From Streptomyces sp. NBC_01476 (GTDB taxonomy: Bacteria; Actinomycetota; Actinomycetes; Streptomycetales; Streptomycetaceae), in the NCBI RefSeq assembly GCF_036227265.1, contig NZ_CP109446.1:1873501-1937500 (forward strand): 64,000 bases of DNA, given 5' to 3'. The notes under the pieces were generated by a model, which ran no database searches, was not told where the DNA came from, and saw only the letters and a list, made by a program, of their open reading frames with translations. Made by a program: the position numbers and the translations under genes. Shown in pieces: positions 6,001 to 59,865 of this stretch; position 1 is the first letter of the stretch, and the number at the start of each line of letters is the position of its first letter.

Positions 6001-7029
6001 TCAGACGCTCTTGGAGGCGCCTTCGGGTTCGTCCGCGGGTTCGTCCGCGGGCCCGGCCCCCGCAGGGGCGGCCGACGCGGCAGGTTCCGTCGCGGCCGGG
6101 GGTTCGTCCGGGTCGGGCGGAGGTGTGGCGCTGCCGTCCCCGGCATCGTCCGGGACAGCGTCCGGTGCGGTGACGGGGGCGCCGGCCGGTGCGGTCAGCA
6201 CTGCCGGGTCCGGCTCCACGGTCTCCTCGCGGCCGGGGTGGCGGCGGGCGGAGAGGACGAAGTAGAGGACCGCCCCGGCGAAGACGACGATCGCCGTCCA
6301 GTCGTTCAGCCGCAGACCCAGGATGTGGTGGGCGTCGTCCACCCGCATGTACTCGATCCAGAACCGGCCCACCGTGTACGAGGCGACGTACAGCGCGAAG
6401 GCACGGCCGTGGCCGAGCCGGAAGCGGCGGTCCGCCCAGAGCACGAGCAGCGCGACGCCGACGCACCACAGGGACTCGTACAGGAAGGTCGGGTGGTACG
6501 TGACGACGTCCGGTGTCGCGTCCGGCCGGTGTGCGGGGTCGATCTTGAGCGCCCACGGGAGGTCGGTGGGCCGCCCGTACAGCTCCTGGTTGAACCAGTT
6601 CCCCCAGCGCCCGATCGCCTGCGCGAAGGCGATCCCCGGGGCGATGGCGTCCGCGTGCGCGGGCAGTGCGATGCCCCGGCGGCGGCAGCCGATCCACGCG
6701 CCGAGCGCGCCGAAGGCGATGGCGCCCCAGATGCCGAGGCCGCCCTGCCAGATCTTGAAGGCGTCGACCCAGTCCTTGCCGCTGGTGAAGTACAGCTCGT
6801 AGTCGGTGATGACGTGGTAAAGCCGGCCGCCGACCAGGCCGAACGGCACCGCCCAGACGGCGATGTCCGCCACCGTCCCCGCTTTGCCGCCGCGGGCGAT
6901 CCAGCGCCTGCCGCCGAGCCATACGGCCACGAAGACGCCGATGATGATGCAGAACGCGTAGCCGCGCAGCGGGATCGGTCCGAGGTGGACGACACCCTGC
7001 GAGGGGCTGGGAATGAATGCGAGGTCCAT
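6001..7029 (-). CDS. lgt: Prolipoprotein diacylglyceryl transferase
   Basis: Lgt moves a diacylglyceryl group from phosphatidylglycerol to the lipobox cysteine of prolipoproteins. It is the first step of lipoprotein maturation, at the outer face of the cytoplasmic membrane. The 342-residue protein shows the family landmarks in order: PIPLRGYAFCIIIG, GGRLYHVITDY, GGLGIWGAIAFG and GRWGNWFNQELYG, the last two matching the Lgt catalytic region. Seven or so membrane segments end near residue 265. A Pro/Ala/Asp-rich tail follows, as is usual in Streptomyces Lgt. The start MDLAFIPSP matches the family N terminus. There is no good Shine-Dalgarno, and a -10-like TAGCGT lies 11 bases upstream. lspA, two steps later in the pathway, is at 45 kb. 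Confidence 0.95.
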   Translation of the reverse strand: MDLAFIPSPSQGVVHLGPIPLRGYAFCIIIGVFVAVWLGGRRWIARGGKAGTVADIAVWAVPFGLVGGRLYHVITDYELYFTSGKDWVDAFKIWQGGLGIWGAIAFGALGAWIGCRRRGIALPAHADAIAPGIAFAQAIGRWGNWFNQELYGRPTDLPWALKIDPAHRPDATPDVVTYHPTFLYESLWCVGVALLVLWADRRFRLGHGRAFALYVASYTVGRFWIEYMRVDDAHHILGLRLNDWTAIVVFAGAVLYFVLSARRHPGREETVEPDPAVLTAPAGAPVTAPDAVPDDAGDGSATPPPDPDEPPAATEPAASAAPAGAGPADEPADEPEGASKSV

Positions 7030-7150: not shown

Positions 7151-7230
7151 CTGACGTGCCCTGAGGTGCGCTGAGGCGCTCTGAGCTGCTCTGAGCTGCT
7201 CCGAGGTGCTCTGAGCTGCTCTGAGGTGCC
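7151..7230. repeat. Eight tandem copies of a 10-bp unit
   Basis: Eight consecutive decamers all resemble CTGAGSTGCT: three copies are exactly CTGAGCTGCT and the other five differ at one to four positions. The block fills most of the space between the DsbA-like gene and lgt. The 10-bp period is close to one DNA helical turn, so identical faces would align. It lies ~80-160 bp upstream of the lgt promoter candidate. Confidence 0.9.
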
Positions 7231-7248: not shown

Positions 7249-8073
7249 TCAGGAAGGGGTGGCGGTGACCTTCCCCGGCTGCTTGCCCTTGTTCGCCTGC
7301 TTCACCATCTGCTTCAGCGAGTCCGGGGTGAGTGCCGCGCTCTGGCTGCCGTAGATGTTCTTGCCGTTGAGCAGCACGGTGGGGGTGGAGTTGAAGCCCG
7401 AGGAGTTGAACGCCTGGTCGGACTTCTTCACCCAGCTGTTGTGGGTGCCGTTGTTCACGCAGGCGGTGAAGGCGGGCGTCTTGAGACCCTGGACCTGGCC
7501 GGCCAGGTCCAGCAGGGTGTTCTTGTCGGCGAACTTGTCGTCCTGCTCGTCGGGCTGGTTGCTGTACAGGACGTCGTGATAGGCGCGGAACTTCCCCTGG
7601 TCCTGGGCGCACGCGGCGGCGTTCGCGGCGGTCAGCGAGCCGGAGCCGCCGAGGTTGCCGTCAATGAGCGTGACCAGGTGGTACTCGGTACGCAGCTGCC
7701 CGTCGTTCTCCAGGCTGTGGATCGTCGGCGTGAAGGCCTTCTCGAAGGCGTCGCAGGCCGGGCAGCGGAAGTCCTCGTAGATCGTCAGCGTGGAGGGCGC
7801 GTCGGCGGCGCCGACCGGGATCACCAGGCCGTCCTTGCCGGTGGCCCCCTTGGGCGTGCTCACCGCGCCCGCCGAGTCGGTATCGCCCGAGCTGCCGCCG
7901 CTGTCGTTGTCGGCGACCACCACGCCGATGACGGCGCCGATGACGAGCACGCCGGCCACCGCGCCCGCGACGACCAGGGTCCGCTTCCGTCTGGCCTGGT
8001 TCTTCTCCTTCGCCCGCTGTTCCTGGAGCGCCTCGCGGGCGCTGCGCTTCCTGTCACGGTTCTTCTCGCTCAC
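7249..8073 (-). CDS. Membrane-anchored DsbA-like thiol-disulfide protein
   Basis: A 274-residue protein with a charged cytoplasmic N terminus (~30 residues), one membrane segment at ~32-53, a Ser/Gly/Asp linker, and a thioredoxin-fold domain outside the membrane. The active-site motif CPAC is at 104-107 in YEDFRCPACDAF, and the cis-proline loop STPTVLLNG is near the end. This is the DsbA/DSBA-like thioredoxin_4 family, which oxidises or isomerises disulfides in exported proteins. The GTG start is the only sensible one in frame, although AGAGG sits very close to it. It lies downstream of trpA, behind a strong hairpin. A paralogue with the same layout is at 39497-40294. Confidence 0.85.
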   Translation of the reverse strand: MSEKNRDRKRSAREALQEQRAKEKNQARRKRTLVVAGAVAGVLVIGAVIGVVVADNDSGGSSGDTDSAGAVSTPKGATGKDGLVIPVGAADAPSTLTIYEDFRCPACDAFEKAFTPTIHSLENDGQLRTEYHLVTLIDGNLGGSGSLTAANAAACAQDQGKFRAYHDVLYSNQPDEQDDKFADKNTLLDLAGQVQGLKTPAFTACVNNGTHNSWVKKSDQAFNSSGFNSTPTVLLNGKNIYGSQSAALTPDSLKQMVKQANKGKQPGKVTATPS

Positions 8074-8231: not shown

Positions 8232-9046
8232 TCAGCCGCGCTTGCGGACGCCCTCGGCGAGTTCGGCGGCCAGCGCCCGTACCGCGGCGACACCGGCGGC
8301 CAGGTCGTCGCCGTGGTCGAGCAGCCGCTTGACGAAGGCCGAGCCGACGATCACACCGTCGGCGAAGCCGGCCACCTCGGCGGCCTGCGCCGCGTTGGAG
8401 ACGCCCAGGCCCACGCAGACCGGCAGTTCGGTGGTGGCGCGGGTCCGCCGCACCAGGTCGGCGGCCTGCGCGCCGACGCTGGTACGGGTGCCGGTGACGC
8501 CCATCAGCGAGGCCGCGTAGACGAATCCGGAGCCGGCCGCGGTGATCCTGGCCAGCCGCTCGTCGCGGCTGGAGGGGGCGACGACGAAGACGGTGGCCAG
8601 CCCGTGCTGCTCGGCCGCCTTCCGCCACAGCTCGGACTCCTCGACCGGCAGGTCGGGCAGGATGCAGCCCGCGCCGCCCGCCTCGGCGAGCTCGGCGGCG
8701 AAGCGCTCAGGACCGTAGCGGTCCACCGGGTTCCAGTACGTCATCACCAGGACCGGCTTGCCGGACGCGGCGTGCCCCTCGCGCACGGTGCGCAGCACGT
8801 CCACGATCCGCACGCCGTTCTTGAAGGCGATGTCGTCGGCGGTCTGGATCACCGGGCCGTCGAGCACCGGGTCGCTGTGCGGCAGGCCGACCTCGACGAT
8901 GTCGGCGCCGCCCTCGAAGGCCGCCCGGACGGCTTCCACGCCGCCGTCGATGGTCGGGAAGCCGGCCGGCAGATAGGCGATGAGCGCGGCCCGGCCCTCG
9001 GCCCTGGCAGCGGCAAGGCTCTGGTCGAGCAGTTGGATGTTCCCGG

Positions 9047-9050
<4 letters not shown>
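8232..9050 (-). CDS. trpA: Tryptophan synthase alpha subunit
   Basis: TrpA cleaves indole-3-glycerol phosphate to indole and glyceraldehyde 3-phosphate and channels indole to TrpB. It has 272 residues, the normal length for this TIM barrel. The catalytic acids are visible: Glu53 in [11 protein letters not shown] with Asp60 beside it, then the loop ILPDLPVEE. The phosphate-binding end is present as CVGLGVSN and [10 protein letters not shown]. The ATG overlaps the trpB stop by 4 bp (ATGA), so expression is coupled to trpB. A strong hairpin follows. Confidence 0.97.
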
Positions 9051-10318
<1,268 letters not shown>

Positions 10319-10430
10319 GGGGTGGTGCCTTTGCCCTTGGCAGGTGGGTGGGAGGGGACGGGGAGGGCACGGCGGGGCGTACGGCGTCGGCTCTCGCCTT
10401 GTACGTACGCTGCCGGCCGGTGGTCGCGGG

Positions 10431-10574
10431 TCAGCCGCGCCGCCATCGCCTGCCGTTCACCTGGCCGGGCTCGCACCCGATCACGTACCGCACCCGCCGC
10501 CCGAGCACCCGGCGCGCCGGCGCGCGGCAGCCGCGGGGGCGGCAGCCGGGGGCGAGGCGGGAGGAGATGGGCAT
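10431..10574 (-). CDS. trpM: TrpM-like small protein
   Basis: A very basic 47-residue frame, [20 protein letters not shown] followed by an Arg-rich stretch, [13 protein letters not shown] and a WRRG end. It lies between trpC and trpB, where S. coelicolor carries trpM, a small gene reported to modulate tryptophan synthesis and differentiation. The core sequence agrees with my memory of that family, but this version is shorter than the 63 residues I recall. No convincing Shine-Dalgarno precedes the ATG, so the start is uncertain. Three cysteines and 14 or so arginines suggest a nucleic-acid or protein-binding peptide, but that is inference. Confidence 0.6.
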
Positions 10575-10643
10575 GGGCGTGATTCTACGGGCCCCTGCGG
10601 GGTGGCCGCACCAGCCCTCCCCGGGGTGCCCCACCCCGTCCCC

Positions 10644-10980
10644 CTCGCGCAGTTCCCCGCGCCCCTGAGGGGGTGCCCCCTCCGGACGGTTGGCATGCTG
10701 CCGCCGGGTCGTGGCTCGTCGCGCAGTTCCCCGCGCCCCTGAGGGGGTGCCCCCTCCGGACGGTTGGCATGCTGCCGCCGGGTCGTGGCTCGTCGCGCAG
10801 TTCCCCGCGCCCCTGAGGGGGTGCCCCCTCCGGACGGTTGGCATGCTGCCGCCGGGTCATGGCTCGTCGCGCAGTTCCCCGCGCCCCTGGGGGGGTGCCC
10901 CTTCGGGCGGGTTTGCAGACTGCCGCCGGGTCATGGCTCGTCGCGCAGTTCCTCGCGCCCCTGGGGGGGTGCCCTTTCCC
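10644..10980. repeat. Tandem array of a 74-bp unit (about 4.5 copies)
   Basis: The marker AGTTCC inside GCGCAGTTCCCCGCGCCCCT recurs at 10651, 10725, 10799, 10873 and 10947, exactly 74 bp apart. Copies two and three are almost identical. Copies four and five have drifted in the TTGGCATGCTGCC half. Each unit holds GAGGGGGTGCCCCCTC, which can fold into a 7-bp hairpin. The array occupies most of the trpC-trpM gap (10575-11113), and no gene was recognised there. The unit length is not a multiple of three, so it is unlikely to be coding. Confidence 0.92.
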
Positions 10981-11016
10981 GGGACGGTGTCCACTAGGGG
11001 CGCGGGGAACTGCGCG
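10942..11016. repeat. 21-bp inverted repeat at the trpC end of the array
   Basis: The arm at 10942-10962 (CGCGCAGTTCCTCGCGCCCCT, one mismatch) is the reverse complement of 10996-11016, with a 33-base loop. The sequence AGGGGCGCGGGGAACTGCGCG is, from memory, a motif scattered through many Streptomyces intergenic regions. It lies ~100 bp after the trpC stop and could act as a terminator or attenuator between trpC and trpMBA. Confidence 0.75.
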
Positions 11017-11113
11017 GCCTGCCGAGACGGCGCGGAGGGCCCCCGCGGGGGTCGGGGCACGGCGGGGGGAAGGCAGGAGGAAGAGGTGGGGTGCTTCGGG
11101 GCCGGGGTAGAAG

Positions 11114-11923
11114 CTAGTCGCGGCTGTTGCGGAGGGCGGGGTGGGCGCCGGCTGCTACGAGGTCGGCGACGGCCGTGCGGGGGTCCTTGCCGGTGACGAG
11201 GGACTCCCCCACCAGGACCGCGTCCGCGCCGTCATGCGCGTAGGCGATGAGATCGTGGGGCCCGCGGACCCCGGACTCCGCGACCTTGACGATACGGTCC
11301 GGAATCTCCGGCGCGACCCGCGCGAACGTACCGCGGTCGACCTCCAGCGTCTTGAGGTTGCGCGCGTTGACGCCGATGACCCGCGCCCCCGCGTCCACCG
11401 CCCGCTCGACCTCTTCCTCGTCGTGCACCTCGACCAGCGGGGTGAGCCCGATCGACTCCGCCCGCTCGATCAGCGAGACCAGCGCCGGCTGGTCCAGGGC
11501 CGCGACGATCAGCAGCGCGAGATCCGCACCGTACGCCCGGGCCTCCCAGAGCTGGTACGCGGTGACGATGAAGTCCTTGCGGAGCACCGGGATGTCGACC
11601 TTGGCCCGTACCGCCTCAAGGTCGGCGAGCGACCCGCCGAACCGGCGCTGCTCGGTGAGCACGCTGATCGCGGCCGCCCCGCCCGCCTCGTAGTCGGCGG
11701 CGAGCCCCGCGGGGTCGGCGATCGCCGCGAGCGCCCCCTTGGACGGACTGGACCGCTTGACCTCGCAGATCACCGTGACGCCTTCGCCGCGCAGCGCGGC
11801 CACCCCGTCCTTGGCGTCCCGGGCGCGGGCCGCCCGTTCCTTGAGGTCGTCCAGGCTGACCCGGGTCTGCCGCTCGGCGAGGTCGGCTCGGACTCCGTCG
11901 ATGATCTCGTCGAGCACACTCAC
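11114..11923 (-). CDS. trpC: Indole-3-glycerol-phosphate synthase
   Basis: TrpC closes the indole ring, giving indole-3-glycerol phosphate from CdRP. It is a 269-residue TIM barrel. The catalytic region [13 protein letters not shown] is intact, as are [20 protein letters not shown] and the phosphate-binding [10 protein letters not shown]. The GTG start at 11923 follows AAGGGGAG with seven-base spacing, which decides it over longer open-frame options. The downstream gap to trpM is unusually long because of the 74-bp array. Confidence 0.96.
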
Positions 11924-12094
11924 GCGAGAACTCCCCTTCCGGCCGGGCCGAGCAGCGAAATGATCAAGCCAGCGGCGGAACCCGCCGGCACTCCCGATGG
12001 TATCGGCCGGTGGCCGAAGTGCCCGCATCCGGTCGATCGCGGTCCCACCACCTGGACATACGTCCCTGCGTAGCCGTCCGGGGACGGCCCGGAT

Positions 12095-12553
12095 TCACGG
12101 TGCGAGCGCCGCCCCGAAGGGCAGATTCCGGACAACGGTGAAGACGACAAGCAGCGCGACCAGCGCGTGGCGGTGCACCGGCCGCAGCGCCGGCGCGAAG
12201 GGCCGGCCGCGCACCGCCCGGCAGAACCAGACCGCCCAGCCGGCCGCGAAGAGCAGGTATCCGGCCACCGCGAGCGCGTTACAGCCCAGTGCGGTGATGA
12301 CGTCGCCGTGGGCGAAGGCGTACGCGCTGCGCAGACCGCCGCAGCCGGGGCAGTCCAGGCCGGTGAAGTACCGCAAGGGGCAGAGCGGGTAGTGCCCCGG
12401 GGCGTTCGGGTCGACCGCGGCGACGTAGCCGAAGGCGCCGACGACGCCGCCGAGCAGGGCGAGCGGCGCGGCGGTACGGCGCAGGGCGCCACGGTACGCA
12501 CAGGGCGCGGTCCGGTCCGCGGCGGCGGTCACGGCCTCGGGGGGCGGGGTCAC
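12095..12553 (-). CDS. DUF2752 membrane protein
   Basis: A 152-residue protein with three to four hydrophobic segments and the DUF2752 signature YFTGLDCPGCGGLRSAYAFAHG near the middle, including the conserved cysteines and HGD. The function of the family is unknown. It sits in the trp cluster with the same orientation as trpC, in the position I recall for S. coelicolor. The GTG start has no Shine-Dalgarno, but CAGAAT lies seven bases before it, suggesting a leaderless transcript. Confidence 0.85.
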   Translation of the reverse strand: MTPPPEAVTAAADRTAPCAYRGALRRTAAPLALLGGVVGAFGYVAAVDPNAPGHYPLCPLRYFTGLDCPGCGGLRSAYAFAHGDVITALGCNALAVAGYLLFAAGWAVWFCRAVRGRPFAPALRPVHRHALVALLVVFTVVRNLPFGAALAP

Positions 12554-59497: not shown

Positions 59498-59865
59498 ACG
59501 CCTCTCCCCCCGCCCCACGGTGCCCCCACCGGTCCGGGTGAGCCGCTCCGCACCCGGCGTCCGCCCGGCAAGACCGCCGCCGGCAGGAAGACCTGGGCAA
59601 GCGGACCCGCCGCCCGTCCACCGCCCGGCCGTGAGCACCGCGCTGGGTCGTACGCGCCCGGCTGGGTGCGGGAACACCAGGCTCGGCCGCATGCATCCGG
59701 CTGGGTGCGGGAACACCACGCCCGGCCACATGCACCCGGCTGGGTGCGCGAGCACCGCGCCCGGCCGTATGCGCCCGGCTGGGGCGTATGCGGCCTCGTG
59801 GGGCCGGGCGCCGGGGGTGGTGGTGCCGGTGCCGCCGGGCGGGCGGCGGGGCGGTGTGCCGTCAT
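59494..59865 (-). CDS. Possible 123-aa Cys/Trp repeat protein between murD and ftsW
   Basis: A frame from ATG 59865 (GGAGGGG three bases upstream) ends with a stop that overlaps the ftsW ATG by 4 bp (ATGA), the junction used elsewhere in this cluster. After a Pro/Ala-rich start the product has about four 13-residue units of the type QPGACGRAWCSRT. A Gly/Arg/Pro tail follows. GC at third positions is only ~78%, lower than in neighbouring genes, and the same repeat is open in other frames, so it may be non-coding. I recognise no family. Confidence 0.3.
   Translation of the reverse strand: MTAHRPAARPAAPAPPPPAPGPTRPHTPQPGAYGRARCSRTQPGACGRAWCSRTQPDACGRAWCSRTQPGAYDPARCSRPGGGRAAGPLAQVFLPAAVLPGGRRVRSGSPGPVGAPWGGGRGV
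59634..59791. repeat. 39-bp tandem repeat, about four copies
   Basis: Units start at 59658, 59697, 59736 and 59775 (the last partial), with a partial unit before 59658. The constant core is CCGGCTGGGTGCG. The period is 13 codons, so every frame keeps its phase. It lies in the 415-bp murD-ftsW gap, where related genomes as I recall them have little or no spacer. Confidence 0.9.

Follow-up and report, generated by a model that had tools for sequence, protein, structure and literature searches.

REP sequences are imperfect palindromes that are preceded by a conserved tetranucleotide. In E. coli, palindromic units are combined in inverted as well as direct orientation into mosaics called BIMEs, which are situated mostly 3' of genes and have been linked to gyrase and IHF. 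MITEs are short non-coding elements with inverted ends that occur in many copies. The Streptomyces repeat reported here resembles the BIMEs in its mosaic organization and 3' placement, but differs from them in sequence. Likewise, it is short, non-coding and present in many copies with inverted ends as known for MITEs; however, tandem arrays of half units, as found here, are unusual for such elements. The comparison with the REP/REPIN class, as described in the available text of Bertels and Rainey 2011 (PMC3116915), revealed that both types of repeats are short, extragenic and multi-copy, and that both exist as single copies, as inverted doublets and in tandem arrays with even spacing. However, the core is different, and the inverted unit of Streptomyces is longer, with its cores being 107 bp apart. 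A description of this repeat family was not found among the papers listed by searches of the open literature; subscription journals were outside this search, hence the family may have been described. Of the stem-loop surveys of 40 genomes, the word Streptomyces is absent from the available text of PMC2267715 and appears only once, in the references, in that of PMC1590033.

The described counterpart of the locus itself is the trpCXBA/TrpM region of Streptomyces coelicolor. According to the available parts of PMC5036795, trpCXBA was termed polycistronic, trpBA could be expressed independently of trpM, and a trpM mutant was complemented by a fragment including the region upstream of trpM, on which a putative promoter upstream of trpX/trpM was located. 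The gene order is identical in our window, i.e. the whole analysed stretch of 64,000 nt from the 8.4-Mb chromosome of Streptomyces sp. NBC_01476 (G000), but unlike the window, the S. coelicolor locus is described in these parts of the source without mention of a repeat array. On the minus strand of the window, trpE is followed, with a plus-strand gene in between, by genes for a TIGR02234 Trp-associated membrane protein, an HGxxPAAW protein and a DUF2752 protein, and then by trpC, trpM, trpB and trpA. The gene calls came from our own simple codon-bias caller and not from the annotation, and very short genes such as trpM are missed by it; trpM matches NF047334, and the placement of the array between trpC and trpM in the preliminary description is correct. 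We consider it likely that this array represents a dispersed REP-like repeat that was multiplied locally behind trpC and is mostly passenger DNA, while trpMBA is probably transcribed from a promoter of its own. The features of the locus are as follows (window coordinates):

8232 to 9050, minus strand: trpA
9047 to 10318, minus strand: trpB
10431 to 10574, minus strand: trpM, 47 aa, NCBIfam equivalog NF047334
10582 to 10587, minus strand: candidate -10 box TAGAAT of the leaderless type, 7 nt before the trpM ATG and downstream of the array
10645 to 10974, no strand assigned: tandem array (TRF: period 74, 4.5 copies, 96% matches, no indels)
10647, 10721, 10795, 10869 and 10943 (starts), plus strand: five direct cores
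10944 to 11016, minus strand: hairpin predicted from facing cores, with an RNA folding energy of -45.5 kcal/mol and z -5.40 (all of 200 shuffles fold less well), no T-run
10997 to 11015, minus strand: inverted core, within a perfect 21-bp arm (10996-11016)
11114 to 11923, minus strand: trpC

As stated in the preliminary description, five GCGCAGTTCCYCGCGCCCC cores at a spacing of exactly 74 bp and one inverted core are indeed present in the trpC-trpM gap. The length of this gap is 539 bp. Only the core starting at 10943 deviates, with T replacing C at core position 11, and the 21-bp arms at 10646-10666 and 10996-11016 show 100% complementarity. Taking a 55-nt spacer plus the core as one unit (74 nt), there is no difference over 74 nt between the two units that end in cores 2 and 3, whereas identity amounts to 98.6% for the third unit and to 86.5-87.8% for the fourth. 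Neighbouring array spacers are alike at 100, 98 and 85%, which led us to reject a CRISPR array, since it needs unique spacers; the sequence preceding the first core shows no relationship to the array spacers (29%). In contrast, the spacers of other exact core copies in the genome match the array by 77% at best (median 59%). Hence, the array spacers are closer to each other than to any other exact genome copy and the units arose on the spot, which is in agreement with the recent expansion that had been proposed from the near-identity of two units. Within the genus, G031, whose TrpB is 95% identical and which belongs to the two closest genomes by this protein, carries an array at the same trp place and in the same direction, with a period of 67 and three copies, which can be aligned with that of the window (79% over 183 nt). 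Outside trp, direct neighbours less than 100 bp apart show periods of 68-90 bp, and their spacer identity is only 53 to 91%, thus not all of them need be local duplicates. Near-evenly spaced core copies were also found in another genus (G215, G348). Two tandem repeats of other types were noticed in the window: a 10-bp unit repeated approximately 8 times at 7151-7229, in the gap between genes called at 6001-7029, presumably lgt-like as judged by eye, and at 7249-8073, and a repeat with a period of 39 bp at 59657-59783 (3.3 copies, 87% matches).

The genome-wide search for the core, which the preliminary description had proposed, revealed a dispersed and not a trp-specific element. The exact core exists in 127 copies, and all 127 are placed between genes predicted by our caller, where they are distributed over 68 gaps. 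Allowing up to one mismatch resulted in 132 matches compared to 0 for the reversed pattern, which excludes chance. The copies occur as singlets, as inverted pairs of approximately 126 bp and as tandem arrays; among adjacent copies that share a gap, 24 are direct, 18 facing and 17 head-out. The spacing of the head-out pairs is almost invariable (exactly 107 bp in 14, 108 in 2 and 102 in 1), and a core spacing of 107 bp gives the 126-bp element, of which 24 could be aligned from G000 and G028. In the latter genome, 78 of 78 exact cores are intergenic as well. GTGGCTGNTC-like letters precede the core, with GTGG itself in 53 of the 127 copies. As a side observation, a second palindrome, TGGGGGYACCCCCGGACGAAGTCTGGGGGA or near to it, interrupts the core at the same point in 22 places of the G000 loci and the window (among those listed L010:2692 on the plus strand, L012, L013, L014, L016, L018 and L021), which represents either an element inserted within another or an alternative form of the repeat.

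The short, extragenic and multi-copy nature corresponds to REP sequences and the inverted doublets of fixed spacing correspond to REPINs, for which a genomic RAYT, i.e. a Y1 transposase, is also expected. However, its domain PF01797 was not found in the window's own genome, and of the 23 other genus members that bear the core, 22 were likewise negative. Hence, despite the matching layout, the repeat is REP-like, a variant of the REP/REPIN kind, and is not called a REPIN. Across the genus, PF01797 occurs in one of 24 core-bearing compared to six of 10 core-free genomes. A RAYT as mobiliser was rejected given the negative searches in the own genome and this inverse association (Fisher p 0.001, although with only two phylogenetically independent pairs the comparison has no power). 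The combination of a REPIN layout with no RAYT found alongside makes the mode of spread a testable question. One reading, which we regard as less likely than not, is that a REPIN-like family, with members in 63% of the genomes sampled from the window's family, might have spread free of RAYT via an unrecognised mobilising enzyme or host process and might, due to its 3' placement, reshape transcript ends at recurrent sites such as trpC-trpM.

The family in question is the one to which the window belongs, the Streptomycetaceae. There, the exact core was detected in 177 of 281 sampled genomes, with 1 to 1,039 copies per core-bearing genome and several single-copy cases. Over the whole order sample, this amounts to 177 matching genomes out of 293, with 0 of the 12 from other families, while the reversed control gave one match each in five genomes. 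The phylum sample comprised 396 genomes, and the 13 that matched all belong to the same family, with 0 of the 376 outside it; combining both samples, the core was found in 0 of 388 genomes outside the family. Hence, the repeat is restricted to one family in these samples. This family was taken to be the Streptomycetaceae, because the best named relatives by TrpB are Streptomyces and the core is also found within trp loci of named Streptomyces and Streptacidiphilus. Within the genus, 24 of 34 genomes including our own carry exact cores, and the same 24 result from a presence threshold of at least 20 copies with up to two mismatches; at that tolerance the remaining ten showed 0-7 matches compared to 0-3 for the reversed control. 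On a tree built from TrpC and TrpB (45 rows, of which the 34 genus genomes were scored), repeat presence requires at least 4 changes. A function at the DNA level, such as protein or gyrase binding or chromosome organisation, has been proposed for enterobacterial BIMEs, and by analogy the strictly intergenic position of this highly repeated core could be read in the same way. Nevertheless, ten of 34 genus genomes do without the exact core. This speaks against an essential role in the chromosome, and we consider a DNA-level element improbable.

The position of the repeat relative to genes is biased towards 3' ends. Of the occupied gaps, 46 lie between genes in tandem, 14 between convergent and 8 between divergent genes, whereas 87 tandem, 9 convergent and 40 divergent gaps were counted in the background (gaps from the same loci that are free of the core and 100 bp or longer), which means depletion of divergent (p 0.005) and enrichment of convergent gaps (p 0.0045). 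In tandem gaps, the cores are nearer to the upstream stop in 38 of 46 cases, at a median of 80 nt past it. Similar distributions were obtained for G028 (20 tandem, 15 convergent and 3 divergent gaps, tested against the G000 background; 14 of 20 tandem ones nearer to the upstream stop) and for the 34 facing pairs of G004 (15, 14 and 5; 13 of 15). Moreover, some sites are shared: in 8 of the 68 occupied gaps both flanking genes are common to one of the 38 occupied G028 gaps, and 14 gap pairs of the two genomes share at least one flanking gene, both being raw counts uncorrected for chance. This 3' bias with its depletion of divergent gaps raises the possibility that the repeat is a selected, orientation-independent device at 3' ends, in which hairpins of facing cores terminate transcription or shield the mRNA, and that it was retained behind trpC for insulating trpMBA. 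The partly shared occupied sites, together with the occupied trp gaps in 9 of 23 other core-bearing genus genomes, make a selected 3'-end role possible. However, the avoidance of promoters accounts for the 3' bias equally well.

The folding at trp speaks to the same idea. The preliminary description stated that each unit can form a hairpin. This is true only in a trivial sense, since a complete unit of 74 nt does not fold better than shuffled versions of it (z -0.47 on one strand and +0.59 on the other, with 52 and 133 of 200 shuffles folding as well), although a short stem can be drawn by eye within a single core. Two units together reached z -1.32. Among four stretches folded singly, a significant hairpin was predicted only for the inverted pair, the first core of which starts at a distance of 98 nt from the trpC stop. 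The whole trpC-trpM gap gave z -2.89, with 0 of 100 shuffles being as good. The strong predicted hairpin shortly behind trpC counts in favour of a 3'-end device. Nevertheless, an intrinsic terminator, i.e. a G+C-rich hairpin followed by a T-run, was not found in 10400-12100. In S. lividans, a U-rich motif was present at only 194 of 1,640 Term-seq 3' ends, as given in the available text of PMC6742748, hence a hairpin free of T-runs could still mark a 3' end.

In G004, the facing pairs (L202-L235) are of near-constant length. Between their cores, a GAGGGTGAGC-like stretch is situated with a T-run behind it in 29 of 34 pairs; this run has at least 4 T at one loop end and lies behind a stem seen by eye. 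This is again in line with a 3'-end device, but among the 15 tandem cases the T-run is oriented with transcription in 6, against it in 7 and absent in 2, thus we rejected a directional intrinsic terminator in these loops. A conserved C-A mismatch in the facing hairpins was likewise dismissed: it is present in 17 of 22 pairs of G000 and G028, but nearly all listed G004 pairs are C/C.

The presence of the repeat at trp is variable. The trpB gene was recovered from 34 of 35 genus genomes, the missing one being 71% complete, and the length of the trpC-trpM gap ranges from 4 to 705 bp. With up to three mismatches the core occurs in this gap in ten of the 34 genomes (G000, G031, G022, G016, G009, G028, G032, G004, G030 and G023), in different copy numbers and orders, and seven have an exact core; it was not found in the gaps of the other 24. 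This occupancy requires at least 6 changes on the tree. Among 14 further trp loci from named records, of which 11 were measurable, Streptacidiphilus fuscans has the core in the trpC-trpM gap, while in four Streptomyces it is situated between trpM and trpB instead. Hence, the trp cluster is repeatedly occupied, yet the trp genes do not need the repeat, given its presence in a minority of gaps and the number of changes on the tree. The 24 gaps in which no core was found, down to one of 4 bp, also weaken the idea of a 3'-end device, which we regard as possible but rather doubtful.

The claim that the array must influence read-through, stability or dosage of trp was not supported, because the core resides in 67 other gaps of the genome and was not found in most trpC-trpM gaps of the genus. 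These numbers also count against a trp-specific regulatory array, i.e. an attenuator-like or dosage device with selected copy number. Its position inside the trp cluster, its recent expansion and the finding that trp belongs to the sites shared between genomes would fit such a device, but close direct neighbours exist elsewhere in the genome and near-evenly spaced copies in another genus. Furthermore, the Rfam search gave four matches, all below gathering scores and taken as chance, and the only one over the array was an animal microRNA model. We therefore regard a trp-specific device as very unlikely. What had been supposed to be a trp regulator thus turns out to be one member of a repeat family that is abundant in the main bacterial producers of antibiotics. 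According to the favoured reading as locally multiplied passenger DNA, one copy of the dispersed extragenic palindromic repeat of Streptomycetaceae would have landed behind trpC, in the trpC-trpM gap, and slippage or unequal exchange would have multiplied it in place to the 74-bp array, which may be mainly tolerated. The hairpin closest to trpC may set the 3' end of the trpC mRNA or protect it, acting as a roadblock or nuclease shield, and may lower the read-through into trpMBA, which would be made chiefly from a leaderless-type promoter below the array.

For this promoter, candidate evidence exists. The -10 element of S. lividans is TANNNT and approximately 20% of its ORFs are leaderless (available text of PMC6742748). 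A TANNNT ending 6-7 nt before the trpM start was found in 27 of 34 genus genomes, and 5 of 13 other loci have one at a distance of 6-8 nt. As background, such a box occurs at 21 of 334 starts predicted by our caller and in 0.8% of intergenic windows chosen at random; however, the trpM start was chosen among in-frame codons favouring the box and the background was counted without such freedom, hence this comparison leans towards trpM. A -35 element was not evident, as 3 of the 27 have 4 of 5 positions of TTGAC, and a generic promoter scan of the locus found no promoter. Nevertheless, the frequent leaderless-type box suggests that trpMBA probably has its own promoter and forms an independent leaderless transcription unit, which the preliminary description had named as a situation that makes the array irrelevant; at the level of sequence, it points in this direction. 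Read-through from trpC into trpMBA is possible, since trpCXBA of S. coelicolor was termed polycistronic. A dependence of insertion on the trpM promoter was considered and dropped: the box is present in 10 of 10 occupied compared to 17 of 24 unoccupied genomes (p 0.08), but all 7 genomes without the box are also without the repeat family; in one of them, G021, the trpM start may be misplaced. With regard to tryptophan genetics, the -10 box that is conserved in front of trpM represents a more useful lead than the array. In G003, G011 and G027 (L140, L146 and L148), the TAG stop codon of trpC is at the same time the first half of the trpM -10 box.
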